From the NCBI RefSeq assembly GCF_000513995.1, contig NZ_AZVB01000008.1:62001-126000 (forward strand): DNA of 64,000 bases, given 5' to 3'. Below are positions 38,960-62,710 of this stretch, piece after piece (the first letter of the stretch is position 1; every line of letters begins with the position of its first letter). The stretch is from Pseudoxanthomonas sp. J35. GTDB lineage: Bacteria > Pseudomonadota > Gammaproteobacteria > Xanthomonadales > Xanthomonadaceae. The translations under genes and the position numbers were made by a program. Below the pieces are notes generated by a model. It saw only the letters and a list, made by a program, of their open reading frames with translations, was not told the DNA's origin and made no database searches.

Positions 38960-38963
<4 letters not shown>

Positions 38964-39430: not shown

Positions 39431-39556
39431 TGCCCGGACGCTGACTGCTCCGCACACCGGTGCGGCGCAGTGCTGTGCGTTCGTGCCGTGCGCGTCACGG
39501 CATGTGTTCCTGCCTCGTCCGAGCGACCTGCGTCGCGTCGGCCCAAGGACACTGAT

Positions 39557-42369: not shown

Positions 42370-42370
42370 C

Positions 42371-45300: not shown

Positions 45301-45523
45301 GATGACCGTGGTGGCGATCATGGCTGGCCTGCTGCCGATCATGTGGAGCAGCGGCACCGGCTCCGAGGTCATGCGTCGTATCGCCGCGCCGATGGTGGGC
45401 GGCATGGTGTCGTCCACGGTGCTGACCCTGGTCGTGATCCCGGCGCTGTACTCGCTGATCAAGCAGCGGCAACTGGCCAGGAAGCCGCCGGCACCCACTG
45501 CGCTGCCCGTGGAGATGCGGTGA
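42371..45523 (+). CDS. cusA: CusA/CzcA-type heavy-metal efflux RND transporter
   Basis: A 1050-residue inner-membrane proton antiporter with 12 predicted helices and two large periplasmic loops. Diagnostic stretches are DVQVIVFTEYPGQAPQ near residue 42, the helix-4 proton relay region SIGVMVDAAIVMIENAHKH near 400, and the repeated TM set after residue 870 (LIFLLLYLNF, AETGVVMLIYLDHALE). Met-rich sites in the porter domain and the CusB-type adaptor favour Cu(I)/Ag(I) as substrate. With the adaptor and the TolC-like protein it moves metal out of the cell. Confidence 0.95.
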   Translation: MLGRLVEWSVRNVFLVLLMALAIVAGGIYALMNTPLDAQPDLSDVQVIVFTEYPGQAPQVVEDQVTYPLTSALLATPKSKDVRGFSFFGASFIYVIFEEGTDLYWARSRVLENLNVASKNLPAGVAPALGPDASGVGWVYQYVLQSDRHSLDELRAMQDWYLRYQLTTAPGVAEVASVGGFVRQYSITVDPVRLREFDIPISRVSEVIAESNRDVGGRVIELAETEYMVRGRGYLRGIEDIESLVLRAEGGAPVLIGDVARVELVPDERRGIADLDGEGDVVGGIAIARFGENALAVIGGVKEKIAQLASGLPEGVSVQAVYDRSDLIVRAIKTLRTTLLEESLIVALVCLVFLFHARSALVAIVMLPVGVLIAVIAMRMLGMNSNIMSLGGIAISIGVMVDAAIVMIENAHKHIERSDGSRSRTQLIIDACREVGPALFFSLMIITVSFLPVFALEAQEGRLFKPLAFTKTFAMAGGALLSITLVPVLMLLFVRGKIVPEHKNPVNRFLVAAYRPVINVVLRHRMATIMFALVALFASLWPASRLGSEFMPTLNEGTLLYMPASLPGMSVTKASELLQQQDRIIKGFPEVESVFGKAGRALTATDPAPLEMFETVINLKPEDEWRDGMTTDKLIAEMDAALKFPGVANSWTMPIKARTDMLATGIRTPVGIKLFGTDLEQLDALATEIEAVVREVPGTTSAFAERLTGAYYLDITPDLGSLAQYGVTLGEVQNVVAAALGGEIVTTILQGRERFSAIVRYPRELRDDPHRIGSQVLVPVPGGAQVPLGELARIEVRKGAPSIRTENAMLAAYIYIDTRESDLGRYVKAAQEAVTEQVQFPPGYYVTWSGQYEYMQRAADKMRVVIPVTLALIFLLLYLNFRRVTESLIVMLSVPFALVGGVWLMWLLDYNTSVAVIVGFIALAGVAAETGVVMLIYLDHALEARAAQRQAEGRSLDAGDLREAIIEGAVDRVRPKMMTVVAIMAGLLPIMWSSGTGSEVMRRIAAPMVGGMVSSTVLTLVVIPALYSLIKQRQLARKPPAPTALPVEMR

Positions 45524-45692: not shown

Positions 45693-46205
45693 ATGACGGT
45701 CACCGACAAAGCAGTACCGCCGCTGATGACGGTCCGCCAGCTGGCCCGACAGGGCGACGTCACGGTGCATGTGGTGCGCAACTATCTGCGGCGCGGCCTG
45801 CTGCAGGCGGCGAGGCACACCGAGAGTGGCTACCAACTGTTCTCGGCTTCGGAGCTCCAGCGCCTGCACTTCATTCGCACCGCCCAACAGCTCGGCTTCA
45901 CGCTGGCGGAGATCGAGGAGATCATCCGCCACAGCCTGCTGCGACATAGTCCCTGCCCGTTTGTGCGGGACATCATCCGACGCCGACTCGACGACACCCG
46001 CCAGCAACTGGACAACCTGCTCGCCATGCACGCGCGGATGGAACATGCCGTCCACGCCTGGTCTTCGCTGCCGGATTCCATCCCGACTGGCAACGATGTC
46101 TGCGCATTGATCGAATCCGTTGCCGCCGCTGAGGGCGGCGGGTTCGTCAGGTCCACCCCGCGGCGCCTCCTTGGACGCCGCCCCACTCAGGAGAATTTGC
46201 CATGA
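45693..46205 (+). CDS. MerR-family metal(?) regulator
   Basis: A 170-residue MerR-family protein with the usual N-terminal helix-turn-helix (LMTVRQLARQGDVTVHVVRNYLRRGLL, read as two parts) and a coiled coil. Cysteines are at about positions 88 (HSPCPF) and 137 (NDVCAL), not matching CueR, MerR or PbrR exactly, so the inducer is not predicted. The C-terminus is longer than usual, basic and Gly-rich. It probably controls its own operon via the dyad at 45638. The next gene overlaps its stop (ATGA at 46202-46205). Confidence 0.8.
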   Translation: MTVTDKAVPPLMTVRQLARQGDVTVHVVRNYLRRGLLQAARHTESGYQLFSASELQRLHFIRTAQQLGFTLAEIEEIIRHSLLRHSPCPFVRDIIRRRLDDTRQQLDNLLAMHARMEHAVHAWSSLPDSIPTGNDVCALIESVAAAEGGGFVRSTPRRLLGRRPTQENLP

Positions 46206-46508: not shown

Positions 46509-47174
46509 ATGCACGCACCTGACTCCGGCTACGGTCTTTGGCTCCTCGCCGCCATCGACGCCGCGTTCTTCATCTTCTTCGCCTGGAGCTTCTACAAACC
46601 GCTGACCCGGTGGGACTGGCGTGGGTTCGGGATGTTCTCCGCATTCGTCGTGGCCCTGTTCGCGGAAATGTATGGCTTCCCGCTGACGCTGTACGTCCTG
46701 GGCGGGTGGCTCAGCGCCAACTATCCGCAGGTCAACTGGCTCAGCCACGACGCCGGCCATCTGCTGGAGATGTGGTTCGGCTGGCGCGCCAATCCGCATT
46801 TCGGTCCATTCCACCTCGCGAGTTTCGTCCTGATCGGCGGCGGCTTCTGGCTGCTGTCGGCAGCTTGGCCCGTGCTGTATCGGGCACAGCGTGAGGGTCG
46901 GCTTGCCCGGGAGGGCGTCTATGCGCGCTTGCGTCACCCGCAGTACGTCGCCTTCGTATTCGTACTGACCGGTTTCCTCCTGCAGTGGCCCACGCTGCTC
47001 ACGCTCGTCAGCTATCCGGTGCTGGTGTGGGCCTATGCCCGCCTCGCGCGTCGTGAGGAGAGGGATTGCCTGAGCCGCTTCGGCGAGGACTACGTGAGCT
47101 ATATGCAGGAGGTGCCGGCCTTCATACCGCGACGCCGGCGCGGTCCTGTCCGATCGGCGGGGGAAGCCCGATGA
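46509..47174 (+). CDS. Isoprenylcysteine carboxyl methyltransferase-like membrane protein
   Basis: A 221-residue membrane protein with about five helices. The C-terminal core has REGRLAREGVYARLRHPQYVAFV and ARREERDCLSRFGEDYVSYM, motifs of the ICMT/PEMT-like methyltransferase fold that bind S-adenosylmethionine. The bacterial substrates are not known; relatives occur beside metal-resistance genes. The ATG at 46509 follows GGAGG; the ATG five bases earlier is in the wrong frame. Confidence 0.85.
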   Translation: MHAPDSGYGLWLLAAIDAAFFIFFAWSFYKPLTRWDWRGFGMFSAFVVALFAEMYGFPLTLYVLGGWLSANYPQVNWLSHDAGHLLEMWFGWRANPHFGPFHLASFVLIGGGFWLLSAAWPVLYRAQREGRLAREGVYARLRHPQYVAFVFVLTGFLLQWPTLLTLVSYPVLVWAYARLARREERDCLSRFGEDYVSYMQEVPAFIPRRRRGPVRSAGEAR

Positions 47175-47254: not shown

Positions 47255-47674
47255 ATGAACAACGTCACACATGCCGCCTGTTTTTCTGGCCCACGCACCA
47301 ATCCCAATCGCTGGTTCGCCGCGCTGGCGCTGGCGGGCGCCTTCGCCTTCTCCTTCGCACTGCCGGGGGTTGCTTCCGCGAGCGAAGGCGGGTTCCGCCA
47401 CAACGTGTTGATGCGCGGCCAGGTTCTGGAGACGCAGGACGACACACTGGTGGTCTGCGTCGGCAAGGCCGACGGAGCCCAGGTCGACCAGGTGCTGGAT
47501 GTGATCCGGCACAAGCGCCGTAACCGCGGTCCTCGGGATATCGGGCCGCGCTTTCGCCGGGAAGCCGTCGGTCAGGTGCGCATTACCGGGCTGTTCGACG
47601 ACCACTACGCAGAGGCTGAAGTGATCTCCGGAAAGCCCAAGGTCAATGACATCGTCGAGCTGATTCGACCGTGA
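47255..47674 (+). CDS. Exported small beta protein of unknown function
   Basis: A 139-residue protein. AAGGAG precedes the ATG at 47255, and a signal peptide runs to VASASE. The mature 90 residues read as a small beta-rich domain (HNVLMRGQVLETQDDTLVV, GQVRITGLFDDHYAEAEVI, VNDIVELIRP), which reminds me of flagellar FlgT-like or OB-like folds; this is weak. An upstream in-frame ATG at 47171 would overlap the previous stop but gives a poor signal peptide. It ends the MerR-regulated group. Confidence 0.7.
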   Translation: MNNVTHAACFSGPRTNPNRWFAALALAGAFAFSFALPGVASASEGGFRHNVLMRGQVLETQDDTLVVCVGKADGAQVDQVLDVIRHKRRNRGPRDIGPRFRREAVGQVRITGLFDDHYAEAEVISGKPKVNDIVELIRP

Positions 47675-47755: not shown

Positions 47756-49141
47756 ATGACCTCGACTTCCCGCCCGACGCTGCAGTTCCTCGGTGCCGCC
47801 GGCACCGTCACCGGATCGCGCTACCTGGTCGAGGCCAATGGCCAGCGCGTGCTGGTCGACTGCGGTCTCTTCCAGGGCTACAAGCAGCTGCGCGACCGCA
47901 ACCGGGCACCGTTCCCAGTCGATCCGGCGTCCATCGACGCGGTGGTCCTGACCCATGCCCATCTGGATCATTCGGGCTACCTGCCGGCGCTGGTCAAGCA
48001 GGGATTCCGCGGCCGGATCCACTGCACCCACGGCAGCGTGGCCCTGTGCGGACTGCTGCTTCCCGACAGCGGGCACCTGCTGGAAGAAGAGGCGAAGTAC
48101 GCCGCGCGCAAGGGCTACTCGAAGCACAAGGAGCCGCGACCGCTCTATACGGAAGAGGACGCCCGTCGCAGCCTGAAGCAGCTGCAGGGACATGACCATG
48201 AACGCGACATCGAGGTCGCGCCCGGCTTCACGGTGCGCTTCCACCCCGCAGGCCACATCCTGGGCGCCGCCCACGTCAGCCTGGATGTCCAGGGGCAGCG
48301 CCTGCACTTCAGCGGCGACTTGGGACGGCAGCAGGAATCGCTGATGAATCCGCCGACGCCCCTGCCCGCCTGCGACGTACTGGTCTGCGAGTCCACATAT
48401 GGCAATCGCGAACACGTCCCGATCGACCAGGAAGCGGAATTGGCCCCGATCATCCGCCGTGTTGCCGCGCGCGGGGGCGTGATCGTCATCCCCGCCTTTG
48501 CCATCGGCCGCGCCCAGGCGCTCATGCTTCACATCGCCCGGCTGCGTGAGCGGCAGGAGATTCCCCGCGTCCCGGTCTACCTCAACAGCCCGATGGCGAT
48601 CAACGCGACCCGGCACTACCACGCCCACCATTCCGAGCACCACGTGTCCGAAGAGGACTGCCAGCGGATGTTCGACGTGGCCACCTTCGTCAACACGGTG
48701 GAAGAGTCGAAGGCGCTCAACCGCCAGCGCGGGCCGATGATCATCATCTCCGCCAGCGGGATGGCGACCGGGGGGCGCGTGTTGCACCACATCGAAGCGT
48801 TCGGCCCCGATGACCGCAACGCGATCCTCCTCGCGGGCTACCAGGCCGGCGGAACACGCGGTGCCGCGCTGGCGGCAGGAAAGCGAACCTTGCGCATGTT
48901 TGGCCGCGAGGTCCCCATCCGCGCCGAGGTCGTGCAGCTGGAAGGCTTCTCCGGCCACGCCGACGCCGGGGAACTGCTGGACTGGATGCGCACCGCGCCG
49001 TCCGCGCCGCGCGTCGTCTACCTCACCCACGGCGAGCCCGATGCAGCCGACACGTTGCGCGGGCGCGTGCAGCGTGAGCTGGGCTGGCGCGCGCGCGTTC
49101 CGGAGCACCTGGAGCGCGTTGGACTGGAGGATGCGCGATGA
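47756..49141 (+). CDS. Metallo-beta-lactamase / beta-CASP ribonuclease
   Basis: A 461-residue protein. The N-terminal metallo-beta-lactamase core has LTHAHLDHSGYLP near residue 65 (HxHxDH zinc motif) and FHPAGHILGAAHV. The beta-CASP part includes VCESTYGNREH, RVAARGGVIVIPAFAIGRAQ and IIISASGMATGGRVLHH, with a final FSGHADAGELLDW, as in archaeal and bacterial Ysh1/CPSF-like RNases. It should cut or trim RNA. It heads an operon in which the next four genes overlap by ATGA, or nearly so, and is a common partner of phosphoketolase-AMP phosphorylase clusters. Confidence 0.9.
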   Translation: MTSTSRPTLQFLGAAGTVTGSRYLVEANGQRVLVDCGLFQGYKQLRDRNRAPFPVDPASIDAVVLTHAHLDHSGYLPALVKQGFRGRIHCTHGSVALCGLLLPDSGHLLEEEAKYAARKGYSKHKEPRPLYTEEDARRSLKQLQGHDHERDIEVAPGFTVRFHPAGHILGAAHVSLDVQGQRLHFSGDLGRQQESLMNPPTPLPACDVLVCESTYGNREHVPIDQEAELAPIIRRVAARGGVIVIPAFAIGRAQALMLHIARLRERQEIPRVPVYLNSPMAINATRHYHAHHSEHHVSEEDCQRMFDVATFVNTVEESKALNRQRGPMIIISASGMATGGRVLHHIEAFGPDDRNAILLAGYQAGGTRGAALAAGKRTLRMFGREVPIRAEVVQLEGFSGHADAGELLDWMRTAPSAPRVVYLTHGEPDAADTLRGRVQRELGWRARVPEHLERVGLEDAR

Positions 49142-50655
49142 GCGAGCTGGCCGCTGGTCACACCCTGCTGCGCGTCACCCGTGCCGGCATCGACACCTAC
49201 CAGCAGCCGGTGGTCTATATGCACCGTGACTGCGAAGTCTGCCGCTCGGAAGGCTTTGCCGCGATGACGCGCGTGAGGCTGGACGTCGGCGCGCGCACGC
49301 TGGTGGCGACGCTGAACGTGGTCGTGGACGATCGGCTCGGCCTGGACGAGGTGGCGCTCTCGGAGACCGCGTGGACGCTCCTCGAACCCATGCCGGATGC
49401 ACTGGCCCGGGTTCGGCACGCGGAACCCGCGGCGTCGGCAGGCGCGCTCCGCGCCAAGGTGTTCGGGGCACGGCTGGACGACGCGCAGTACCTCGCCCTG
49501 GTGCAGGACGTGATGGAAAGCAGGCTGTCGGACCTGGAGCTTGCCGCCTTCGTCACGGCCAGCGCGGGCGACCGCCTCGACAACGTCGAGACGACCGCGC
49601 TGACGCGGGCCATGATCGCGGTTGGCCAGCGCCTGGACTGGGGCGATGGGCCGGTGCTGGACAAGCACTGCGTCGGCGGCCTGCCGGGCAATCGCACCAC
49701 CCCGATCGTGGTGGCCATCGTGGCCGCGCTTGGCTACCGCATTCCGAAGACCTCGTCGCGCGCGATCACGTCGCCCGCGGGCACCGCCGACACCATGGAG
49801 GTCATGGCGCCGGTGGCGCTCGACCTGGCGGCGATGCGGCGGGTGGTGGAGCGCGAGGGCGGCTGCATCGTCTGGGGCGGCAACGTGCGCCTGAGCCCGG
49901 CCGACGACATCCTGATCCGGGTCCAACGGCCACTCGACTTCGACAGCGACGGCCAACTGGTTGCCAGCGTGCTGTCGAAGAAGATCGCGGCGGGCTCCAC
50001 CCACGTGCTGATCGACATGCCGGTGGGTCCGACCGCCAAGGTGCGCAGTGAGGCTGCGGCGGACAGCCTCGGCTCGCGGCTTGCACACACCGCCAGCGCG
50101 CTTGGATTGCAGCTGGCCATCCATCGCTCCGACGGCACCCAGCCGGTGGGTCGGGGCATCGGCCCGGCGCTCGAGGCGCACGATGTGCTCAAGGTGCTGC
50201 GCAATGCAGCCGATGCACCCGCCGACCTTCGCGAACGCGCACTTGCGCTGTCCGCGGCGCTGCTGGACATGGCACCGGGCAGCAACGCCGGCACCGGACT
50301 GGAGCGCGCGCGCGGCGTGCTGGATTCCGGGGCGGCGCTGGCCAAGTTCCTGGCGATCTGCGAGGCCCAGGGAGGCTTCCGCGAACCGCCACGGGCGGCG
50401 TTCACCGCCGACGTCCCGGCGCCTGCATCGGGCCGCATCGCGGCGATCGACAACCGCAGGCTGGCCAAACTGGCCAAGCTGGCCGGCGCCCCGACATCCC
50501 CCACCGCCGGCCTCGAAACCGGTCTGCGGATCGGCGATACGGTCGAGCGCGGACAGCCCATGATGACCCTGCATGCGGAGTCGCCGGGAGAACTGGCCTA
50601 CGCCCTGGAGCACGCCGCGACGCTGCAACCCTTTGTGCTTGGAGAGGTTCCATGA
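49138..50655 (+). CDS. AMP phosphorylase / thymidine phosphorylase-family enzyme
   Basis: A 505-residue protein of the nucleoside phosphorylase class II family in its longer form, like archaeal AMP phosphorylase and the bacterial 'putative thymidine phosphorylase'. An N-terminal extension of about 85 residues (HTLLRVTRAGIDTYQQP) precedes the standard fold. Motifs: KHCVGGLPGNRTTPIVV near 175, TSSRAITSPAGTADTMEV near 205 and GTQPVGRGIGPALEA near 335. It would split AMP or a pyrimidine nucleoside with phosphate, giving base plus ribose (1,5-bis)phosphate. Overlaps both neighbours by four bases. Confidence 0.88.
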   Translation: MSELAAGHTLLRVTRAGIDTYQQPVVYMHRDCEVCRSEGFAAMTRVRLDVGARTLVATLNVVVDDRLGLDEVALSETAWTLLEPMPDALARVRHAEPAASAGALRAKVFGARLDDAQYLALVQDVMESRLSDLELAAFVTASAGDRLDNVETTALTRAMIAVGQRLDWGDGPVLDKHCVGGLPGNRTTPIVVAIVAALGYRIPKTSSRAITSPAGTADTMEVMAPVALDLAAMRRVVEREGGCIVWGGNVRLSPADDILIRVQRPLDFDSDGQLVASVLSKKIAAGSTHVLIDMPVGPTAKVRSEAAADSLGSRLAHTASALGLQLAIHRSDGTQPVGRGIGPALEAHDVLKVLRNAADAPADLRERALALSAALLDMAPGSNAGTGLERARGVLDSGAALAKFLAICEAQGGFREPPRAAFTADVPAPASGRIAAIDNRRLAKLAKLAGAPTSPTAGLETGLRIGDTVERGQPMMTLHAESPGELAYALEHAATLQPFVLGEVP

Positions 50656-51566
50656 CCCGTGTGCTGATGCCTTTCCCGGCCGATGCAGCATTGGCCAGCA
50701 CCATGAACCAGGCTATGCAGGCGCGCATTGCACCTGTGGCTTGGCGGCACTTTCCCGATGGCGAGTCGCTGGTCACCCTGGACGACGCGCTGGCTGGCGC
50801 GGATGTGGCCATCCTGGCCAGCCTGCGCCACGCCGATGCTTTGGCCCTCCCGTTGCGTTTCGCCGCCCGAACGGCGCGCGAGTTCGGAGCGCGCTCGGTC
50901 GGCCTGATCGCGCCCTACCTGGGGTACATGCGCCAGGACACCCGCTTCCATCACGGCGAGGCGGTCAGTACACCGCTGTTTGCGCAATTCCTCGAAGAGG
51001 CTTTCGACTGGCTGGTGACCGTGGACCCGCACCTGCACCGCGTCGAGCGCCTGCAGTCGCTCTACCGCATTCCGACGGTCCACGTGTCGGCGACGCCGGC
51101 CGTGGCCCGCTGGATCGCGGAGACGGTCCCAGACGCGGTGCTGATCGGCCCTGACAGCGAGAGCGAGCAGTGGGTAGCGGACATCGCCGCCCTGTCCGGC
51201 ATGCCCTACCAGGTGCTGGCCAAGGAGCGGCACGGCGACTACGACGTGCGCGTCAGCCTGCCCGACCCGGCAGCCGTGGCTGGTCGGACTCCGGTGCTGA
51301 TCGACGACATCGTGTCGTCCGGCCACACGATCCTGGAGACCCTCGCACACCTGCGCCGGTTGTCGTTGCCGTCGCCGTTGCTGGTCGCCATCCATCCGGT
51401 GTTCGCAGGCGACGCCTACGCCCGCCTGCAGGAGGCGGGCCTGGCCCGCATCGTCAGCACTGACACCATCTCCCACCCCTCCAACGCCATCGCGCTGGGT
51501 GCGGACCTCGCCGCCGCGGCATCGACCCTGATGACCGCTTCGACCGATTCCCCGGAGGACCCATGA
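50652..51566 (+). CDS. Ribose-phosphate pyrophosphokinase-like protein
   Basis: A 304-residue PRPP synthetase-family protein. The C-terminal PRPP-binding loop VLIDDIVSSGHTILET lies near residue 214, and the catalytic flap region has YMRQDTRFHHGEAV and VDPHLHRVERL. It is shorter and more divergent than housekeeping Prs (about 315), so may have a special substrate, such as ribose 1,5-bisphosphate from the preceding phosphorylase. That is inference. Both ends overlap neighbours by four bases (ATGA), so the enzymes are made in step. Confidence 0.85.
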   Translation: MTRVLMPFPADAALASTMNQAMQARIAPVAWRHFPDGESLVTLDDALAGADVAILASLRHADALALPLRFAARTAREFGARSVGLIAPYLGYMRQDTRFHHGEAVSTPLFAQFLEEAFDWLVTVDPHLHRVERLQSLYRIPTVHVSATPAVARWIAETVPDAVLIGPDSESEQWVADIAALSGMPYQVLAKERHGDYDVRVSLPDPAAVAGRTPVLIDDIVSSGHTILETLAHLRRLSLPSPLLVAIHPVFAGDAYARLQEAGLARIVSTDTISHPSNAIALGADLAAAASTLMTASTDSPEDP

Positions 51567-54025
51567 ACCTGCATCTCAACTGCTGCACCGCCGACCAGCT
51601 GTCGGCCGCCGAGCGCCAGCGGATCCTTGAACTCGCCGACGCCCACCGGCAGGCCGATCCGGCGTTCGCCCATTGGGCGGCCGGCTACGGCGTGATCCGG
51701 CATGACCCGCTCACCCAGCTGCGCGTCCGCCAGATGGTGGACGAGCTGGTGGCCCTGGGCCGCACACCCGATGCCGGCACCGCCTGGCAGCGGCTCGCCG
51801 CGGCCGACCGCGTTACCAGCGCCGGCATGTGGCTGGTGGCGCACATGACCTACAGCCAGCGGGTCCGCACCGACGGCGCGGCCCTCGAGGCCGATGACTT
51901 CAAGGCCACGCCCGAAGGCCACACCGGCGGGTCCCTCAACATGGTGCCCGCCTACGCCGGCTACCTGCTGATGGATTCCCTGGATGGCGTCACCCGCGCG
52001 TGGATGATGGGCCAGGGGCACTGCGTGGCCGCCATCGACGCGCTGAACGTGCTGGTTGGCAACATGACCGACCGGCACGCTGAACGTTACGACCGCACCG
52101 ACGAAGGGCTGAGCCGGTTCGTAAGCGACTTCTATGCCTACACCCTCAATCCGGACGGAACGCCGGCGTCGCCCCTCGGCTCCCACGTCAATGCGCACAC
52201 CGCCGGGGGCGTGATGGAAGGTGGCTATCTCGGCTTTGCCGAGCTTCAGTACGTGCATGCGCCGCTCAAGGACGAACGCCTGGTGGCGTTCCTCAGCGAC
52301 GGTGCGTTCGAAGAACAGCGCGGCAGCGACTGGGCGCCGCGCTGGTGGCGTGCCGAAGACAGCGGGCTGGTCAGCCCGATCATCATCCTCAACGGGCGGC
52401 GTATCGAACAGCGCAGCCAGATCACCCAGCAAGGCGGCGAGCGGTGGTTGGACCGGCACCTGCGCCTGAACGGCTTTGATCCGATCGCGCTGGACGGGCG
52501 CGATCCGGCCAGCATCGCGTGGGGCATCCACGTGATGGAGTCGCGCCTGCAAGCGGGCGCCGCTGTTCCCGCCGACGTGCGGCTGCCCTATGGCATCGCC
52601 GAAACCGTCAAGGGCTTCGGCTTCCCCGGCGCCGGGACCAACGCCTCGCACAACTTGCCGCTGCCGGGGAATCCGGCGAAGGATGCCGCGGCGCGCACGC
52701 TCTTCAATGAAGGCGCAGCGGCGCTGTTCGTGGCCGCGTCCGAACTGGATGAGGCCATTGCCGCACTCAACAGCCACGACCTGCAGCAGCGTGTGCGCGA
52801 GCGCGACCATGCGCTCGCCGATCGCCAGATAGACCCGCCCCGCGTTCCAGCCATTGCCGATCGCGGCGTCGGCGGCAAGAGCTCGCCGATGACCGCGCTC
52901 GACGAGCAGTTTATCGCCATCGCCGAAGCGAACCCCGGGCTGCGCGTACGCGTGGGCAATCCCGACGAGCTGCGCAGCAACAAGCTCGACCGTACCCTGG
53001 ACACCATGAAGCACCGGGTGCACGAGCCCGAGCCCGGCGTCGCCGAATCGACCACCGGCACGGTCATCACCGCGCTCAACGAGGAGGCCGTGGTCTGCGC
53101 CGCGCTGGGCAACAAGGGCGGGCTGAACCTGGTGGTGACCTACGAAGCGTTCGCACCGAAGATGCTCGGCGCCGTGTGCCAGGAACTGATCTTCGCCCGT
53201 CACCAGGCACAGGCGGGGCGACCGCCCGGCTGGCTGGGCGTGCCCCTGGTGCTGACCTCGCACACGTGGGAGAACGCGAAGAACGAGCAGTCCCATCAGG
53301 ATCCGACCATGGCCGAGGCGCTCCTGGGCGAAATGGCCGACATATCGCGCGTGGTGTTTCCCCCGGACGCCAACGGCGCCGCCGCGGCCCTCGCCCACGC
53401 CTACGCGCAACGGGGCACGGTCACCACACTGGTCGTTCCCAAGCGTCCGGTGCCTCATGAGCTGACCCCGCAGCAGGCCCAGGCACTGGCCGAGACCGGC
53501 GCAACATGCCTCGCCGGCGATCCGGAGACGGCGGCGATCCTGCTGGTGGCCACCGGCGCGTACCAGCTGCAGGAAGTGCGCCGCGCACAGGCGCGTCTGG
53601 CCGCACGCGGAATGTCGGCCGCGATCGTCTATCTCGCCGAACCCGGCCGGTTCCGCGCGCCCCGCGATCCGGAGGAGGCAAGGTACGTGCACTCCGACAG
53701 TGCGGTCCAAGCGCTGTTTCCGGTGGGCCGGCCGCGCGTATTCGTTACCCACACCCGTCCGGAGCCCTTCCTCGGCGCGCTGCGCCGCATCGACACCGGC
53801 CCGGCCACGACCGCGGCGCTGGGCTTCGTCAACCGGGGCGGCACACTGGACGTGCCGGGCCTGCTGTTCGCCAACCGCAGCACCTGGGCGCACGTGGTTG
53901 ACGCGGCTGCGGGCGTCCTCGGCGAGTCCCGCGACAACCTGCTGTCCGAAGCGGAACTGGCGGCCGTGGATGGTCGCGGCGATCCGACCGCCATCCTGCG
54001 CGCGGAAGCGGGGCCGGCATCGTGA
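51563..54025 (+). CDS. Xylulose-5-phosphate/fructose-6-phosphate phosphoketolase
   Basis: An 820-residue thiamine-diphosphate enzyme, the normal length for phosphoketolase. Typical stretches are PEGHTGGSLNMVPAYAGYL near residue 113, SHVNAHTAGGVMEGGYLGF near 205, FLSDGAFEEQRGSDW near 243, and FPGAGTNASHNLP near 353. It splits xylulose 5-phosphate with phosphate into acetyl phosphate and glyceraldehyde 3-phosphate. Acetate kinase at 57802 can turn the acetyl phosphate into ATP. Its start overlaps the Prs stop. Confidence 0.95.
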   Translation: MNLHLNCCTADQLSAAERQRILELADAHRQADPAFAHWAAGYGVIRHDPLTQLRVRQMVDELVALGRTPDAGTAWQRLAAADRVTSAGMWLVAHMTYSQRVRTDGAALEADDFKATPEGHTGGSLNMVPAYAGYLLMDSLDGVTRAWMMGQGHCVAAIDALNVLVGNMTDRHAERYDRTDEGLSRFVSDFYAYTLNPDGTPASPLGSHVNAHTAGGVMEGGYLGFAELQYVHAPLKDERLVAFLSDGAFEEQRGSDWAPRWWRAEDSGLVSPIIILNGRRIEQRSQITQQGGERWLDRHLRLNGFDPIALDGRDPASIAWGIHVMESRLQAGAAVPADVRLPYGIAETVKGFGFPGAGTNASHNLPLPGNPAKDAAARTLFNEGAAALFVAASELDEAIAALNSHDLQQRVRERDHALADRQIDPPRVPAIADRGVGGKSSPMTALDEQFIAIAEANPGLRVRVGNPDELRSNKLDRTLDTMKHRVHEPEPGVAESTTGTVITALNEEAVVCAALGNKGGLNLVVTYEAFAPKMLGAVCQELIFARHQAQAGRPPGWLGVPLVLTSHTWENAKNEQSHQDPTMAEALLGEMADISRVVFPPDANGAAAALAHAYAQRGTVTTLVVPKRPVPHELTPQQAQALAETGATCLAGDPETAAILLVATGAYQLQEVRRAQARLAARGMSAAIVYLAEPGRFRAPRDPEEARYVHSDSAVQALFPVGRPRVFVTHTRPEPFLGALRRIDTGPATTAALGFVNRGGTLDVPGLLFANRSTWAHVVDAAAGVLGESRDNLLSEAELAAVDGRGDPTAILRAEAGPAS

Positions 54026-54050
54026 GCCGGCCGGCCAGGACCTCGCGCTG

Positions 54051-55643
54051 ATGGCGGGCACGGTGCGGCGCGGAGGGCAGATCGCCTGGGCCGGACTGAA
54101 GCTCGGGGCCGCCGTGCTGCGCCTGCGCCGGCGCGCACCCGATCGGCTTCCCGCATACGTCAGCACCACCCTGGTGGGGCTGGGTACCACCTTCGTCAAG
54201 CTGGGCCAAGGCTTGAGCCTGCGCTGGGACCTGCTGCCGGCGCCCTATCGCGATGCGCTGTCGCGGTTGCACAGCGACGTGCCGGCGTTTCCGGCGGACG
54301 AGGCGAGACGCATGGTTGAACAGGCGTTCGGCGCGCCGGTGGACGCGCTCTTCGCCCGCTTCGATGACAAGCCGTTGGCCGCGGCGTCGGTGGCCCAGAT
54401 CCATCCGGCGCGCATGCATGATGGTCGCGATGTGGTCGTCAAGATCACCCGCCCCGGTATCCATGCCCAGGTGCAGGCCGACCTGCGGCTCCTGCGGCGC
54501 ACGATGCGCGTCGCCCAGTGGCTCTGGCCACCACTCAAGCGACACCGCCCGCTCGAACTCGTGGACGAACTGGGCGCATTCCTGCGCGACGAGATCGACA
54601 TGCGTCACGAGGCGCAGAACATGCGGCGCATGGCCCGGGTGCTTGATGCGCTGCCCGGCATCACCCAGCCCCACGTCGTCGAGCCCTATGCCACCCGCGA
54701 CGTGCTGGTCCAGGATCGAAGCCACGGCACCCGTCTGGAAGCCGCCTACGGGACAGCGGCCGCTCCCGCGCTGGCGAGCGCGCTGCTCGATGCCTACGTG
54801 CATCAGCTCTTCGGCGCCGGCGTGTTCCATGCCGATCCGCATCCGGGAAACCTGTTCTTCTTCGACGACGGTCGCCTGTGCCTGCATGACTTCGGCTCGA
54901 TCGGCGTGCTCGACCCGGCATCCCGGCTCGCGCTGGGCGGCATGGTCGAGGCCATCGCCGCCGACGACGCCGAAGGCGTGCTGGATGCGGCAATCGCCTT
55001 GGGCTTCTTCCCGCCGCAGGTCGAGCGACGCTCGCATGTGCGCGAGATCCACCTGATCCTGGCCGAGATGGCCAGCCGTCCGCTGGCGCAGTGGTCCATT
55101 GCCGAGGCGATCTGGCGCGTGGCACGCATTGGGCAGGGCGCAGGATTCCGGCTTCCGGCCCACCTGCTGTCCCTGATCCGGACGCTGTTCCTGGTCGAGA
55201 ACACGCTGCGGGCGCTGGATCCGGATCTGGACCTGCTGGGGACGCTGTCCGCGCAGGCGGCCGCGATCGCCGACATTGCCGATGCCAGCCGCCCCGGCGG
55301 CAACAGGCCGCTTGCCATGCGGCTGGCCCGCACTGCGCGCCAATTGCCACAGATCGCCACCGACCTGTTGCGGCAGGCGCAACTGAGCGACGGACGACCC
55401 GCCTTCTCCGTACACCACCATGGCCTGAGTTCCACGCAGGAGGCAATCGCGCGCACGGGCAACCGGCTGGCGTTGGCCCTGGTCACCTTGGGCCTGTACG
55501 TAAGCGGTGCGCTGTTGAGCCTGCATTCCGACGGCCCGCAAGTGTTCGGTCACATGCCTTTCCTGGCTATGGTGGCTTTCGCTGCTGCGGGATTGCTCTC
55601 GCTGCGGCTGGTGATGGCCATCGCCAGATCGGGACACTTGTAA
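54051..55643 (+). CDS. AarF/UbiB-family atypical kinase-like membrane protein
   Basis: A 530-residue protein. The N-terminal signature LGTTFVKLGQGLSLRWDLLP near residue 45 is the KxGQ motif of the ABC1/AarF/UbiB family; AAASVAQIHPA is the unusual Ala-rich ATP loop, VFHADPHPGNLFF near 258 and LHDFGSIG near 277 the catalytic parts. Two C-terminal helices (LALALVTLGLYVSGALL and later) anchor it. UbiB supports ubiquinone synthesis, but this paralogue sits in a metal/phosphoketolase operon; its target is unknown. Confidence 0.9.
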   Translation: MAGTVRRGGQIAWAGLKLGAAVLRLRRRAPDRLPAYVSTTLVGLGTTFVKLGQGLSLRWDLLPAPYRDALSRLHSDVPAFPADEARRMVEQAFGAPVDALFARFDDKPLAAASVAQIHPARMHDGRDVVVKITRPGIHAQVQADLRLLRRTMRVAQWLWPPLKRHRPLELVDELGAFLRDEIDMRHEAQNMRRMARVLDALPGITQPHVVEPYATRDVLVQDRSHGTRLEAAYGTAAAPALASALLDAYVHQLFGAGVFHADPHPGNLFFFDDGRLCLHDFGSIGVLDPASRLALGGMVEAIAADDAEGVLDAAIALGFFPPQVERRSHVREIHLILAEMASRPLAQWSIAEAIWRVARIGQGAGFRLPAHLLSLIRTLFLVENTLRALDPDLDLLGTLSAQAAAIADIADASRPGGNRPLAMRLARTARQLPQIATDLLRQAQLSDGRPAFSVHHHGLSSTQEAIARTGNRLALALVTLGLYVSGALLSLHSDGPQVFGHMPFLAMVAFAAAGLLSLRLVMAIARSGHL

Positions 55644-55706
55644 CAGAACACTGATCTATCTCCCCGCTGGTGCCCGGCGCATCAGTGCATCCACGAAGGC
55701 AGACCC

Positions 55707-57782
55707 ATGACGCAACACAATCATCATCATCAAGATCATCAGGCGCACGGCGAGCAACCGCCGCATCCCCGCACGGGTGCTGAAGGTGACGTCCATGCCG
55801 GGCACGACAAGCACGCCGGCCACAGCGTGGCGAGCTTCCGCGACAAGTTCTGGCTCACGCTGCTGCTGACCATCCCCACTCTGATCTGGAGCGGGATGAT
55901 CCAGCATTGGTTCGACTACACCGCACCACAGTTCCCGGGGTCGGCGTACATCCCGGCGGTGTTCGGCACGATCGTGTACTTCTACGGCGGCTCGCCGTTC
56001 GTCCGCGGCGGATACCACGAGCTGAGAAATCGCCTGCCGGGCATGATGACGCTGATCTCGCTTGCGATCACCGTCGCCTTCCTTTACAGCGCGTTGGTCA
56101 CGCTCGGCGTTGTCGAGGGCTTGGACCTGTGGTGGGAGCTGGCGACGCTGGTGGCGATCATGTTGCTCGGCCACTGGATCGAGATGCGTTCGATCAACCA
56201 GGCACAGGGCGCTCTCAAGGAACTCGCGAAGCTGCTGCCTGATATGGCGGTGCGGTTGGATGAGGCCGGTACCGCGAAGGAAGTCCCTGTCGCGGAACTG
56301 AAGCGCGGCGACCTGCTGCTCATCAGGCCCGGCGCGAGCATTCCCGCCGACGGCGTCGTGAAGGAAGGGAGCAGCGCCGTCAACGAAGCGATGATCACCG
56401 GTGAGTCCAAGCCGATGAACAAGGCGGCGGGCGACCGGGTGATCGCCGGCACCGTCAACGGACAGGGCTCGTTGCGTGTCGAGGTGACGGGAACCGGCGA
56501 CGAGACCGCGCTCGCGGGCATCATGCGGCTCGTCGCGCAGGCCCAGACGTCGCGCTCGCGCGCCCAGGCCCTGGCCGACCGGGCGGCGTTCTACCTCACG
56601 ATCATCGCCATCGTCTCCGCCGCGGTTACCGCCATTGTCTGGCCACTCCTCGGTCGACCGTGGAGCTTCACGATCGAGCGCGTAGTGACCGTGCTCGTGA
56701 TCGCCTGCCCCCATGCGCTGGGTCTGGCCATCCCGCTGGTGACCGCCATCTCGACCACGATTGGCGCACGGAACGGCCTGCTCGTGCGCGATCGACGCGG
56801 CCTGGAAGAGGCCCGTTTGCTGAACACGGTCGTGTTCGACAAGACAGGCACGCTCACCCTCGGTTCGCACCGCGTCGTGAAGACCACTGCCGCCGATGGA
56901 CTCACCGACGACGAGGTGCTTCGCGTGGCCGCGGCGGTCCAGCGCGACGCTGAACATCCGATCGCGCAGGCGCTGATGACCAGCGCCAAGGAACATGGCA
57001 TCGACGTTCCGATGTCGCAGGGCTTCGAGTCCATGCCGGGACGCGGCGTGCGCGCAGTCGTGGAGGAGCGCTCGCTTCACGTTGGCGGGCCGGGTCTGTT
57101 GAGAATGCTCGCCGTCGAACCGCCGGAGACCCTTCGGCGGGCCGCCGAATCAGCGGCAGCCGATGGTCAGTCTGCAACCTACCTGGTGGAAGGCGACCGG
57201 GTGCTCGCCGTATTTGCGATCGCGGATGCCATCCGTCCCGAATCGTTCGACGCGGTCAAGCGGCTGCACGACGAAGGACTGGAGGTTGTCCTGCTGACGG
57301 GTGATTCCACGGCGGTCGCAAACGCGGTCGCGAAGGAACTCAACATCGACACCGTCTTCGCCGAGGTATTGCCCGAGGACAAGGTGGCAAAGATCGAGGA
57401 GCTGCAGGCCCAGGGCAAGCGCGTCGCGATGGTGGGTGACGGCGTCAATGACGCGCCGGCGCTGCTCACAGCCGACGTCGGCATCGCCATCGGCACAGGC
57501 ACGGACGTCGCGGTCGAAGCCGGCGACGTCGTACTCGTGCGCAGCGACCCGCGCGACGTCCCTGCGATCATTGCATTGAGCAAGGCGACCTATCGCAAGA
57601 TGATCCAGAACCTGTGGTGGGCCGCCGGGTACAACATCGTCGCCATCCCGCTCGCTGCCGGCGTTCTCTCTGCATGGGGGATCATGCTGCAACCCGCGCT
57701 TGGTGCAGTGCTCATGTCGCTGAGCACCATCGTGGTGGCGATCAATGCGCAGCTGTTGCGCCGGGCGGTACGGTCCCCATGA
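55707..57782 (+). CDS. copB: P1B-type heavy-metal ATPase, CopB (CPH) type
   Basis: A 691-residue pump. The N-terminus is His-rich (TQHNHHHQDHQAH, HAGHDKHAGHS) in place of HMA domains. The metal motif is CPH, in IACPHALGLAIPL near residue 333, which marks the CopB subgroup exporting Cu(II), Cu(I) or Ag(I), as opposed to CPC in the CopA pumps here. DKTGTLTLG near 378, AEHPIAQA and GDGVNDAPAL near 577 complete the P-type signature. Found here between the AarF gene and acetate kinase, it ties metal export to the energy operon. Unrelated to the outer-membrane protein CopB at 31077. Confidence 0.94.
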   Translation: MTQHNHHHQDHQAHGEQPPHPRTGAEGDVHAGHDKHAGHSVASFRDKFWLTLLLTIPTLIWSGMIQHWFDYTAPQFPGSAYIPAVFGTIVYFYGGSPFVRGGYHELRNRLPGMMTLISLAITVAFLYSALVTLGVVEGLDLWWELATLVAIMLLGHWIEMRSINQAQGALKELAKLLPDMAVRLDEAGTAKEVPVAELKRGDLLLIRPGASIPADGVVKEGSSAVNEAMITGESKPMNKAAGDRVIAGTVNGQGSLRVEVTGTGDETALAGIMRLVAQAQTSRSRAQALADRAAFYLTIIAIVSAAVTAIVWPLLGRPWSFTIERVVTVLVIACPHALGLAIPLVTAISTTIGARNGLLVRDRRGLEEARLLNTVVFDKTGTLTLGSHRVVKTTAADGLTDDEVLRVAAAVQRDAEHPIAQALMTSAKEHGIDVPMSQGFESMPGRGVRAVVEERSLHVGGPGLLRMLAVEPPETLRRAAESAAADGQSATYLVEGDRVLAVFAIADAIRPESFDAVKRLHDEGLEVVLLTGDSTAVANAVAKELNIDTVFAEVLPEDKVAKIEELQAQGKRVAMVGDGVNDAPALLTADVGIAIGTGTDVAVEAGDVVLVRSDPRDVPAIIALSKATYRKMIQNLWWAAGYNIVAIPLAAGVLSAWGIMLQPALGAVLMSLSTIVVAINAQLLRRAVRSP

Positions 57783-57801
57783 ACATGAACTGGCGACACC
57801 T

Positions 57802-58905
57802 ATGACCACGCGCCGGCTTCTGACACTCAACGTTGGCTCGTCCACCCTCAAGGGCGCGTGCTATCTGTTGCACGCTGAGGGGCCAGGCGCGCAGCCACGC
57901 GTCGTGGAGCGCTCCCGGGCCGAGATTGCCGTCGGCGCGGATGCGCAAGAGCGACTTGCCACCCTGCTCGAAATATTGTCGATACCGGCGCCCGGCCCCG
58001 ACGTGGTGGTCCACCGAATCGTACATGGCGGCGACCTGCGCAACGCCAGCGAGCTCGACGAAGATGTACTTGCGAAACTGGATGCCTTGGTGCCATTCGC
58101 ACCCTTGCACCAGCCGGTCGCCCTCGCGTTCGCGCGTGCCGCGCGCCTGCGTTGGCCGCAAGCCCGCCAGGGCGTGGCCTTCGACACGGACTTCCACGTG
58201 ACACTCGCACCCTGGAGCCAGCGCCTGCCCATCCCCGAAGCATGGGATGCGCTGGGCGTCCGCCGCTACGGTTTCCACGGACTCGCCTTCGCCTCTGCAC
58301 TGCGAGTCGTGGCCAGCCAGGACGCCGGAATCCTGCGGAGCCGCGCCGTCTTCGCGCATCTGGGGGGTGGTTGCAGCGTCTGCGCCGTCGAGGACGGTCG
58401 GAGCCGCGACACCACCATGGCGCTCACTCCGCTGGGGGGAATCCCGAGCCCTACCCGCTCCGGGGATCTCGATCCCGGTGCGTTGCTGTACCTGCTCAGG
58501 CACGAACGGCTGGACGCGCAAGCGATTGAAGATGGTTTGTCCCGCACTGCAGGTCTTGCCGGCATCGCCGGGCACGGCGATATGCGCGTGCTGCTTGCCG
58601 ATCCTGGCCCGCAGGCCCAGCTTGCCGTGGACCTCTTCGCAGTCCGGATCGCGCAGTCCATCGCGGCCATGGCCACGGGAATCGGCGGACTCGACCATGT
58701 CGTCTTTTCCGGCGGCATCGGCCACCGCGCGCCGGGTCTGCGGGCGCGGATCATCGCGCGCTTGGGCTGGCTTGGCCTGGCGCTGGCACCTGACGACAAC
58801 GATGCTGGGGCCACGCGGATCGATGCCGCGAGCGGGCCGGCCATCTGGAACGTCGCGATCGATGAGGAACGCGAGCTGGCCGAATCAGCATTGGCCTGGC
58901 TGTAG
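57802..58905 (+). CDS. ackA: Acetate kinase-family protein
   Basis: A 367-residue acetate kinase, slightly shorter than usual (about 400). It has LNVGSSTLKGACY at the N-terminus, the RYGFHGLAF motif near residue 155, and the phosphate loop HLGGGCSVCAVEDGRS. The family usually has HLGNGAS at this loop, so one Asn is Gly here. The later SGDLDPG and VFSGGIGHRAP segments are intact. It should make ATP from the acetyl phosphate produced by the phosphoketolase. It starts 20 bases after the CopB-type ATPase gene. Confidence 0.9.
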   Translation: MTTRRLLTLNVGSSTLKGACYLLHAEGPGAQPRVVERSRAEIAVGADAQERLATLLEILSIPAPGPDVVVHRIVHGGDLRNASELDEDVLAKLDALVPFAPLHQPVALAFARAARLRWPQARQGVAFDTDFHVTLAPWSQRLPIPEAWDALGVRRYGFHGLAFASALRVVASQDAGILRSRAVFAHLGGGCSVCAVEDGRSRDTTMALTPLGGIPSPTRSGDLDPGALLYLLRHERLDAQAIEDGLSRTAGLAGIAGHGDMRVLLADPGPQAQLAVDLFAVRIAQSIAAMATGIGGLDHVVFSGGIGHRAPGLRARIIARLGWLGLALAPDDNDAGATRIDAASGPAIWNVAIDEERELAESALAWL

Positions 58906-58940: not shown

Positions 58941-60242
58941 TTACTCGCCGATCAGTGGCGTCGTGAGCACCGCTGCGAATCCACCACCTGGGGTGCGCAT
59001 GTTCGTAGTCTGGCCCTGATAAAGCCGGGCCGCGAACAACAGCACACCCGCCTCGGACGCGAAGCAGCGCACGTCCGCCTTGAGGGACTGGCCCCCATGC
59101 ACGATCCGCATGCTCGGTGGCGCGAAGGCCTGTGCGATGTAGGTCGCCGACGCCATCGACTCCCACGTTCGCCGGGTGAGCTTGTCGCCCCGATAGCTGC
59201 CACGGCTGCCGAACCCTGCTGCAGGCTTGAAGAAGTAGCCGTTGCGCGCTGCCCACAGCGCATCCCGGTTTCCGGGGACGACTTCAACCGTGGGCGGGAT
59301 CACCTGGGCCAGCAGGGCCGCCGAGCCCGCATCCACCCCGAACCCGCCGATCAAGGTCGGGTCTCCAAGCACCGCAAGGTTGCGCTTGTCGGCGAACAAC
59401 GCGTGCGCACGTGGATGCGGGGTGAATGCGACGTCCCCCGCCAGGTAAGCCTGACGAAGGTCTGCATGCGAAGCTTCCTCGAGCGCGAAATCGGTCAACC
59501 GGTTGTAGACCATGTCGATCCGGCCATGGGCATCTGCAAGCCCGTCCGGGCCAAGGCTCAGTTCCTCGGGTGCGCGTATCACGCAGTCCACCCCATGCTC
59601 CTGGAATGCGTCCGCGTACAGCTCGAACTCCGGGTAAAGGAACTGCTCCCGCGGGGCGCTGTCCACGATCGCCAGACGCGCAGGCGCGCGGCCGAACTGC
59701 TGCCGGGCATCGTCCAGCCAGGCGGCGACAGCCGCGTTGCGGGCCTTCGCCGTCGTTGTCCAGGTGGTCCACGCAGCCGGCGCGCAAGACCGCACGCCAT
59801 CGAGCAGCACTGCATTGAGGAGCAGGCCGCCGGGATTGGTGTTGACCTCGATCAGCCGCGGGCCGTCGACCGTCAGGTGAAAGTCCAGACCCAGGACGCC
59901 CCCCGCAGAACCCGGATCATGGGTTGCAATGTCGGGGGCCCATTGCAGGACCCGTTGGCTATATCCCGGGTTTCCTGCGACGTCGAAGACCGCCGCCGCG
60001 ACTCGTCCCATGGCCTCCAACGCGGGCCGATCAACGAACAAGGCATAGGGTGAAAATAAGTGCGCGTGTACGGCGGGATCAGTCGTGAACTCCGGAAAGG
60101 CACCCCGGATCGACTCGTGCAGACGGAGGATGTCGACCACTTCGCATGCACACCGCTGGTTGAGCGGCGCGCTTTCCAGGGTGGCACAGTCGATCTCGCA
60201 GCCTGTCTGTCCAACTATTATCGGAGTCCGCGGTTCAACCAC
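58941..60242 (-). CDS. ATP-grasp-like protein at the 3' end of the mer-like operon
   Basis: A 433-residue protein that I place, with caution, in the circularly permuted ATP-grasp fold: LIEVNTNPGGLLLNAVL near residue 142 resembles the Mg-binding ENxN strand, and FFKPAAGFGSRGSYRG near 335 the glycine-rich ATP loop; ADVRCFASEAGVLLF lies near the end. Such enzymes join an acid to an amine or thiol using ATP, e.g. glutathionylspermidine synthase-like. I choose GTG 60242, which overlaps the GDCCVxC stop, since a longer frame would overrun that gene. Function within a mercury locus is unknown. Confidence 0.65.
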   Translation of the reverse strand: MVEPRTPIIVGQTGCEIDCATLESAPLNQRCACEVVDILRLHESIRGAFPEFTTDPAVHAHLFSPYALFVDRPALEAMGRVAAAVFDVAGNPGYSQRVLQWAPDIATHDPGSAGGVLGLDFHLTVDGPRLIEVNTNPGGLLLNAVLLDGVRSCAPAAWTTWTTTAKARNAAVAAWLDDARQQFGRAPARLAIVDSAPREQFLYPEFELYADAFQEHGVDCVIRAPEELSLGPDGLADAHGRIDMVYNRLTDFALEEASHADLRQAYLAGDVAFTPHPRAHALFADKRNLAVLGDPTLIGGFGVDAGSAALLAQVIPPTVEVVPGNRDALWAARNGYFFKPAAGFGSRGSYRGDKLTRRTWESMASATYIAQAFAPPSMRIVHGGQSLKADVRCFASEAGVLLFAARLYQGQTTNMRTPGGGFAAVLTTPLIGE

Positions 60243-60447
60243 GACAGGGATTGTTCTGTTGGATCGGTGGACATGGCACTGTTCCGAACGAGCAGAACAC
60301 ACAGCAGTCGCCTTGATGCGGACGCAAAACCGCTCCACAGCCCGTGCACTCATAGAAGAATTGACACGCTGTGATGGGCATTGTCTCGGTCGCCCGATGG
60401 CCGCACTCCGGGCAGGTCAAGACGCTTTCCAGCTTGACGTCACTCAC
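60235..60447 (-). CDS. GDCCVxC-domain protein
   Basis: A 70-residue protein with eight or more cysteines: LTCPECGHRATETMP, FFYECTGCGAVL and GDCCVFCSFGTVPCPP. The GDCCVxC family is a small metal- or selenium-linked group found next to mer genes. I start it at GTG 60447, which overlaps the MerP stop by eight bases; the family usually starts at this KLESVLTCPECG point. Not annotated by longer frames. Likely a zinc-ribbon or Hg-binding protein. Confidence 0.82.
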   Translation of the reverse strand: MSDVKLESVLTCPECGHRATETMPITACQFFYECTGCGAVLRPHQGDCCVFCSFGTVPCPPIQQNNPCRG

Positions 60448-61601: not shown

Positions 61602-61874
61602 TCATGGCTTGAACCGGCGGTCGAGCTCCGCCTGGGCAAAATACGCTGACGCCTTGCGCAGGATCTCGTTGGCCTGGCGCAGCTCGCGTACTTCCCGCTC
61701 CAACGCCTTTATCCGCGCCTGCTCGTCGGTAGTCGGCCCGCTGCGCAAGCCGCGGTCACGCTCGGCCTGACGGACCCAGCGACGCAGCGACTCGGGCGTG
61801 CACCCTACCTTGCCTGCGATCGAGACAATCGCCGCCCACTGCGATCGGTGCTCGCCCTGATGCTCCAGCACCAT
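61602..61874 (-). pseudogene. IS3-family transposase OrfA, N-terminally truncated
   Basis: The 90-residue frame matches the C-terminal three quarters of an IS3-family OrfA ([31 protein letters not shown], then leucine-zipper-like [28 protein letters not shown] read in parts). The usual start is missing: just upstream an in-frame TAG appears and the next IS begins near 61893. No OrfB follows. It is a fragment of one IS cut by another. Confidence 0.85.
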
Positions 61875-61889
61875 CCGTACCGCGGGGTT

Positions 61890-62710
61890 CTACCCCGAAA
61901 TCACGGACGGCTGTAAAAGAGCTGACAGCTTCCGGTCTTTCCTGGCCACCCTGCGCCGCATCCTCGGGTTGTGGAACCGCTCGATGTATTCGAACACATC
62001 AGCCCTGGCGGCATCGGGTGTCGGATACGTCATGCGGTGGACCCGCTCGCGCTTGAGCAGGCCGAAGAAGCCTTCGCACGCCGCGTTGTCACCGCAATGG
62101 CCCACCGCGCTCATCGAGCACACCAGTTCGTTGGCCGCCAGGTAACGCTGGTAGTCGCCGCTCCGGAACTGGCTGCCGCGATCGGAATGCAGGATCACCG
62201 GGTCGCTGCCCTGACGCTGCCAGACCGCCATCTGCACGGCCCGGATCACCATCTGCCGATCCTGCCGATGGTGCATCGACCAGCCCACCACGCGCTGGTC
62301 GAACAGGTCCAGCACGATGCACAGGCACAGCTTGCCCTGCCGGTCTTGAGTTCGGTGATGTCGGTGACCCACTTGGTCTCCGGCTCCAGCGCAGTGAAGT
62401 CCCGTTCGAGCAGGTTGCGCACGCCCGGCGGCGTCAGCGCGGGCCGGCCACGCTGCCCACGCCGCTTCGGCCGCGGCCAGCCCTGCAGGCCATCTTCAGC
62501 CATCAGGCGCGCCACCCGGTTCAGGCTGACGGGTTCGCCGGCATCGGCCAGATCTTCCTGCATCCGACCGGCGCCCAGCGTGCCCCGGCTGTCTTCATGC
62601 AGCTCACGGATGCGGTCGAGCAAGCGCTCGTTGTCGAGCTGGCGGGTGCTTGGCAGGCGCTTGCTCCAGTCGTAGTAACCACTGGCCGAGACCCGCAGGC
62701 AGCGGCACAT
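61890..62710 (-). pseudogene. IS3-family transposase OrfB with internal frameshift
   Basis: The 5' part (62710-62350) reads [29 protein letters not shown], then [12 protein letters not shown], the first catalytic Asp of the DDE domain. A one-base loss near 62345 (TG-CAG region) shifts the frame; the rest (62345-61890) reads [27 protein letters not shown] with the second Asp, and GHCGDNAACEGFFGLLKRE with the Glu. So all DDE residues exist but not in one frame. The end overlaps the left inverted repeat. Confidence 0.88.

Follow-up and report, generated by a model that had tools for sequence, protein, structure and literature searches.

A conserved, probably mobile operon joining phosphoketolase and acetate kinase to putative nucleotide-ribose genes beside a copper-resistance block in Pseudoxanthomonas sp. 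J35

A phosphoketolase–acetate kinase pathway, encoded in xfp-ack operons, is found in heterofermentative bacteria. A second related system is the archaeal pentose bisphosphate pathway or nucleoside monophosphate (NMP) shunt, which an extract of PMC9700705 describes in Thermococcus kodakarensis with an NMP phosphorylase, a ribose 1,5-bisphosphate (R15P) isomerase and RuBisCO. Here we set out to characterise a run of seven genes in a 64,000-nucleotide stretch (hereafter the window) of the 3.2-Mb genome of Pseudoxanthomonas sp. J35, contig NZ_AZVB01000008.1. These genes code for a metallo-beta-lactamase-fold nuclease (MBL), an AMP-phosphorylase-like protein (TP), a phosphoribosyl pyrophosphate (PRPP)-synthetase-like protein (PRPS), a phosphoketolase (XFP), an AarF-type protein, a heavy-metal P-type ATPase and an acetate kinase (ACK). 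No described system uniting these parts was found among the open-licence papers listed, and an earlier note made from the DNA sequence knew of none either; all three members of the MBL, PRPS and TP triplet are named in one of these papers, PMC6515984.

The locus resembles xfp-ack operons in that the same two enzyme families share one locus in 55 of 80 cases (the best 80 of 236 confirmed XFP relatives) and in that active-site residues are kept in the window, but it differs in its very divergent phosphoketolase (18–20% identical to solved phosphoketolases), in its terminal position in a copper island, and in the nucleotide genes alongside. With the archaeal NMP shunt it shares a phosphorylase whose nearest solved relative is 4ga5 (E 2.6e-90) and which matches the AMP phosphorylase profile over its whole length; unlike that shunt, it lies in a genome with no RuBisCO and no R15P isomerase over the cut-off, and the partner gene is PRPP-synthetase-like. 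We take 4ga5 to be the T. kodakarensis AMP phosphorylase. According to an extract of PMC6515984, the consecutive locus tags bll3115–bll3117 of Bradyrhizobium diazoefficiens carry the same three product names and are induced by microoxia in protein and RNA, whereas the phosphoketolase bll2518 lies elsewhere; the extract gives no function for the triplet. Lastly, copABCD, a Cu ATPase and CusCBA-type genes lie upstream in the window as in cop/cus islands, which differ in that the window island bears a central-metabolism operon.

Assuming an aerobic lifestyle for the host family, we propose, at a probability of about 0.5, that the cluster is a horizontally transferred copper-island operon that would give an aerobe a substrate-level ATP route when respiration fails. 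Going by protein families and conserved active-site residues, the phosphoketolase would convert pentose phosphate and phosphate into acetyl phosphate and glyceraldehyde phosphate, and the acetate kinase would make ATP from the acetyl phosphate. The nuclease and the TP/PRPS pair would most likely draw on RNA and nucleotides to supply ribose phosphates or keep them in balance, with a putative step delivering ribose 5-phosphate; the metal ATPase and AarF protein would be island partners, benefiting or simply travelling along. Such an operon would represent a transferable trait, carried within metal islands, that lets aerobes outlast a failure of respiration. The interpretation given in the earlier note is partly supported.

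Gene cluster and the phosphoketolase–acetate kinase half

All seven open reading frames (ORFs), as listed for the window, are present on the + strand between 47756 and 58905 (Table 1). The gene order and tight packing reported previously were borne out, the ATGA overlaps at 49138, 50652 and 51563 being exact and the widest intergenic space being 63 bases (55643 to 55707). For the acetate kinase the most likely start is ATG 57802, 19 bases past the ATPase stop, and not 57745 as in the ORF list; the AarF frame spans 53700–55643, with ATG 54051 as likely start. Since the same order recurs in loci of relatives, it is not due to chance; the gene cluster is real and conserved, and probably mobile. 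Earlier family assignments mostly agreed with ours, except that the supposed AMP phosphorylase scored under the TIGR03327 cut-off, the phosphoketolase under all NCBIfam phosphoketolase cut-offs (at best 128 bits of 777) and that the metal of the ATPase is not fixed by its families.

The window phosphoketolase exceeded the Pfam gathering scores for both XFP and XFP_N. Its residues H120, H153, H208, H363, E507, N574 and H578 are invariant in 37 sequences and align, in a profile alignment with 8io6, with H64, H97, H142, H320, E479, N549 and H553 of BbXFP, which we take to be the catalytic residues of that enzyme, with their roles. (For the conservation counts of MBL, TP and ACK given below, duplicates, proteins outside 75–135% of the length of the window's own protein, TP sequences below 42% and ACK sequences below 30% identity were dropped.) The 20 best PDB matches of the structural model (mean pLDDT 84) were all phosphoketolases (TMq 0.70–0.74), followed by transketolases. 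Relatives in Luteimonas and Pseudoxanthomonas are 95–98% identical; one plasmid-borne relative is annotated as “xylulose 5-phosphate 3-epimerase”, a name we rejected as fold and active site are of phosphoketolase type.

The acetate kinase scored 211.6 bits with Pfam (cut-off 22), and its nearest solved relatives are propionate/acetate kinases. Scored as the longer ORF from 57745, it stayed below the NCBIfam cut-offs of TIGR00016 (216 of 293 bits) and PRK07058 (290 of 486). Residues N10, R72, H103, D128, H159, R219 and E355, presumed to be catalytic in their recognised roles, are near-invariant in 50 sequences. An acetate kinase was present in 19 of 60 relatives. The window genes are the sole phosphoketolase and the sole acetate kinase found in their own genome, so that the operon seems to supply the whole acetyl-phosphate ATP step. 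This half of the operon probably makes ATP from pentose phosphate.

Recurrence and probable transfer of the gene set

The co-occurrence survey for which the earlier note had asked was run on the 80 XFP loci, 22 of which are 20 kb or shorter, by counting tblastn matches of E 1e-8 or better and at least 40% coverage and dropping weaker ones. The same seven-gene order was found in 13 loci, and five more add an extra ATPase upstream. Gene by gene, MBL was found in 65, ACK in 55, PRPS in 52, a P-type ATPase in 51, TP in 50 and AarF in 44 loci; MBL, TP, PRPS, XFP and ACK occur together in 40. Three loci from Brevundimonas/Caulobacterales with 59% XFP identity (L097, L103 and L104) have the order PRPS-XFP-MBL-TP, the ATPase and ACK genes being on the opposite strand, and PRPS-XFP-MBL-TP is also seen in two regions from the bacterial order to which strain J35 belongs (L118 and L122). 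A shared function is favoured by this return of the same partners, sometimes rearranged. In a class sample of 369 gammaproteobacterial genomes, the divergent XFP was found in ten; TP was present in seven of these and in 66 of the 359 others (Fisher p 0.0007, or 0.002 without the own genome, with genomes treated as independent and relatedness uncorrected). Both genes lie far apart or on different contigs in three of those seven genomes (G300, G368 and G123).

The nuclease carries Beta-Casp and RMMBL domains over cut-off and the HxHxDH motif, with H67, H69, D71, H72, H167 and D188 near-invariant in 77 sequences. ATPase and AarF are looser partners. Within the most divergent XFP group (below 62% identity; 16 loci of more than 20 kb), MBL was found in 13 and ACK in 12 loci, and TP, PRPS and ATPase in four each. 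Counted by the same tblastn criteria in two sets of 30 phosphorylase regions, the ATPase was present in only 7 and 1, respectively; these 60 regions had been selected from among the TP places. Since the partnership of the P-type ATPase does not run deep, the metal link holds at the level of the island; the pump is a neighbour there and not part of the core. The protein scores over cut-off for TIGR01511 (copper) as well as TIGR01512 (cadmium), which leaves its metal unfixed by family; its CPH motif is presumably CopB-type. Of the suggestion that ATP is made from acetyl phosphate beside a metal exporter, the XFP/ACK route is supported and the exporter as a deep partner is not.

Parts of the gene set are borne by plasmids of Acidovorax, Ruegeria and Variovorax. 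Synonymous divergence (dS) was compared with eight loci, excluding matches below 55% identity; one ACK value, that of the Pseudoxanthomonas kaohsiungensis DSM 17583 locus (L039), was not finite. It was at most 0.47 to six loci, from Luteimonas, Pseudoxanthomonas, Stenotrophomonas and Neopusillimonas (0.30–0.42 for the last), and 0.8–1.5 to the remaining two, from Rhodanobacter and Lysobacter niastensis; the ratio of non-synonymous to synonymous divergence was 0.04–0.37 in the finite comparisons. Low dS together with the plasmid copies suggests that the operon spread by horizontal transfer under purifying selection. An Acidovorax plasmid island (L032) holds acetate kinase, XFP, type II glyceraldehyde-3-phosphate dehydrogenase, a hydroxyacid dehydrogenase, AarF, PRPS and TP, and is possibly a pentose fermentation set.

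Several results, here and in the next section, weigh against the proposed ATP route. In four loci (L049–L052) MBL lies directly before XFP, with 14–100 bases between the matches, and neither TP nor PRPS was found in the fetched stretch; 66 of the 73 TP genomes are without the divergent XFP; and ACK was not found in 25 of the 80 loci, some of them cut by contig ends. The ATPase count of four in 16 among divergent loci weakens the metal link drawn earlier. Most of these counts would fit a rival that we hold to be a serious though less probable explanation, namely that a copper island gathered independent low-oxygen or stress modules (the TP/PRPS pair, the nuclease, XFP/ACK and the metal pump) with regulation or a vehicle in common but no joint metabolic pathway. 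Such hitch-hiking would account for TP-PRPS mostly occurring without XFP, for XFP loci lacking both, for the MBL-ACK-XFP sets without TP in seven loci (including Curvibacter, Comamonas, Dechloromonas and Thauera), and for the separate histories indicated by the dS values of five comparisons, in which the ATPase (0.04–0.08) lies below MBL, TP, PRPS, XFP and AarF (0.11–0.47) and ACK varies from about 0 to 0.35. Shared transport alone, however, poorly explains why the same five partners stand in rearranged order in alphaproteobacterial loci and why plasmids of other groups also carry portions of the set. Loci L049–L052 come from a proteobacterial metagenome-assembled genome, Luteimonas and Thermomonas.

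Proposed ribose supply and inducing condition

TP scored 437 bits against TIGR03327 (AMP phosphorylase; cut-off 535), and we therefore call it AMP-phosphorylase-like only; the broader models TIGR02645 and PRK04350 are matched above their cut-offs. TP matches TIGR03327 positions 3–492 of 500, N-terminal region included, and four nucleoside phosphorylase models begin at its residue 104 or later. Alignments with 4ga5 and 5oln gave a motif of SSRAITS.AGTAD type, not the SGRGLGHTGGTID type of nucleoside phosphorylases, and the motif residues are near-invariant in 103 sequences. PRPS exceeded the cut-offs of PRK07199 (366 bits; 322) and TIGR01251 (173 bits; 113), with archaeal-type PRPP synthetases as nearest solved relatives. 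Its RQD, His127, Lys191, Arg193, DD and Thr226, whose catalytic roles we assume, are kept in 96–97 of 97 sequences. The motif PDxGGxxRA, which we take to be that of the ribose side, is absent from PRPS, and two solved relatives read PDKGALEFA and PDRGALDRA there; Glu170, Trp174, His129 and Arg130 occur in 97 of 97 sequences, the matching residues of the genome's own PrsA being Gly, Arg, Asp and Gln. That ordinary PrsA lies elsewhere and is 26% identical to PRPS, which led us to reject a housekeeping role for the operon protein.

In the class sample TP was found in 73, PRPS in 80 and both in 70 genomes, with PRPS in 10 of the 296 genomes without TP. The two genes lie at most 400 bases apart at 71 of 76 TP places; at the other five, PRPS is 3.9 kb off in one, on another contig in one and without a match at E 1e-30 in three. 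This near-obligate pairing in gammaproteobacteria now calls for an explanation, and the possible use of TP in bacteria without R15P isomerase or RuBisCO becomes a concrete, assayable question.

Against the ATP route counts the lack of known enzymes linking TP to XFP in this genome. DeoB was not found in the own genome; R15P isomerase (TIGR00511) was over the cut-off in none of 60 TP genomes nor in the own one; PhnN was in three of the 60 and RuBisCO in 31, the own genome again being without either. Weak TIGR00511 and PhnN matches presumably stem from MtnA and guanylate kinase. No route from ribose 1-phosphate or R15P to xylulose 5-phosphate could thus be traced here, although ribose 1-phosphate may be a substrate of a broad phosphohexomutase. 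A strong match to the RuBisCO large subunit was seen in 28 of the 31 genomes with TP below 50% identity to that of the window, and in 1 (plus 2 weak) of the 29 at 50% or above.

Its kept catalytic residues and invariantly changed ribose-side residues make PRPS the natural candidate for the missing step. A doubtful possibility is that it is a new enzyme, which would act on R15P as the product of TP, pass the anomeric phosphate on to AMP or ADP and set ribose 5-phosphate free. If so, together with a housekeeping isomerase and epimerase, a RuBisCO-free bacterial route from RNA via NMP, R15P, ribose 5-phosphate and acetyl phosphate to ATP would be encoded almost wholly by one mobile operon, and the TP-PRPS pair would be a general bacterial unit for nucleotide-ribose salvage. 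Of the RNA-to-ATP chain put forward previously, the recurrent gene company, the kept catalytic residues and the capacity of XFP/ACK to make ATP from pentose phosphate stand; a known enzyme from TP to XFP is absent from the genome and four loci have XFP without TP/PRPS. Feeding of XFP/ACK by RNA ribose is plausible, with the missing step and the counterexamples against it. Substrates of XFP and ACK may likewise differ from those proposed, as both score below the NCBIfam cut-offs. It is improbable that PRPS and TP chiefly determine how ribose 5-phosphate is divided between nucleotides and XFP, with ATP gain secondary: their near-obligate pairing and a Methylorubrum PRPP-synthetase mutation that redirects carbon to a phosphoketolase pathway (extract of PMC11252147) would suit such a valve, but the genome has its separate ordinary PRPP synthetase and the ribose-side residues of PRPS are altered.

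As regards the trigger of the proposed ATP route, the extract of PMC6515984 reports that bll3115 (MBL), bll3116 (PRPS), bll3117 (TP) and bll2518 (phosphoketolase) rise at 0.5% oxygen, with protein log2 changes of 2.9, 4.4, 2.1 and 4.3 and, taken by that paper from earlier work, RNA fold changes of 15.4, 7.7, 5.1 and 8.2; none of the four is marked there as changed in bacteroids. Our analysis thus supports low oxygen over metal as the trigger; for copper or mercury, proposed in the earlier note, no evidence was found, the published condition for the same-named proteins being low oxygen. Three points count on the other side: the parallel, including the putative type of bll2518, is drawn from product names; none of the four is marked in that extract as a direct FixK2 target; and no FNR box with fewer than two mismatches was seen in 38000–64000 of the window, for which reason a clear FNR control site was rejected.

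Copper-resistance block and flanking genes

With copABCD, a Cu ATPase, CusCBA-type efflux and a MerR-family gene upstream, the operon forms the downstream end of a copper-resistance block (Table 1).

Table 1 Features of the operon and its surroundings in the window
Feature	Position	Strand	Basis
MBL: MBL-fold beta-CASP/RMMBL nuclease	47756-49141	+	Pfam domains; nearest solved TTHA0252
TP: AMP/NMP-phosphorylase-like, with N-terminal region of the archaeal enzyme	49138-50655	+	NCBIfam; solved relatives
PRPS: PRPP-synthetase-like, PRK07199 subfamily, ribose-side motif altered	50652-51566	+	NCBIfam; alignment
XFP: divergent phosphoketolase	51563-54025	+	Pfam; alignment; model fold
AarF/UbiB/ABC1-type protein	54051-55643	+	Pfam/NCBIfam
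Heavy-metal P1B ATPase, His-rich N terminus, CPH motif	55707-57782	+	Pfam/NCBIfam; motif by eye
ACK: acetate kinase	57802-58905	+	Pfam; conserved residues
Whole upstream copper-resistance block	29185-45523	+	curated cut-offs
CopA oxidase	29185-31071	+	over curated cut-off
CopB	30888-32225	+	over curated cut-off
CopC	34659-35042	+	over curated cut-off
CopD	35053-35982	+	over curated cut-off
Cu P-type ATPase	36510-38963	+	over copper ATPase family cut-off
TolC/CusB/CusA-type efflux	39470-45523	+	OEP, CusB-type HlyD and CusA/CzcA over curated cut-offs
MerR-family regulator, metal unassigned	45693-46205	+	best MerR match 73.5 bits, cut-off 150.9
ICMT/PEMT-type methyltransferase	46509-47174	+	Pfam; recurrent neighbour, 36/80 loci
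Small protein of 139 aa, probably exported, without family match	47255-47674	+	homologues in 16 fetched loci
Glutathione-synthetase-like ATP-grasp fold, convergent gene	58941-60353	-	model; recurrent neighbour, 28/80 XFP loci

The convergent gene after the acetate kinase gave no Pfam match over cut-off; the fold of its model (mean pLDDT 76) is similar to that of glutathione-synthetase-like ATP-grasp ligases, and its homologues across XFP loci go down to 44% identity. Further out, a tandemly repeated tRNA-Ala/tRNA-Glu pair lies at 7065–7689, and a large DEAD/ResIII helicase protein with weak likeness to DpdF and Cas3 helicases is coded at 22338–25451 in a low-GC stretch (about 22–28 kb). Near the operon, ORFs resembling parts of an IS3-type transposase were recognised by eye at 61602–63051 (- strand), with a short CDF-like reading frame beside them near 63000.

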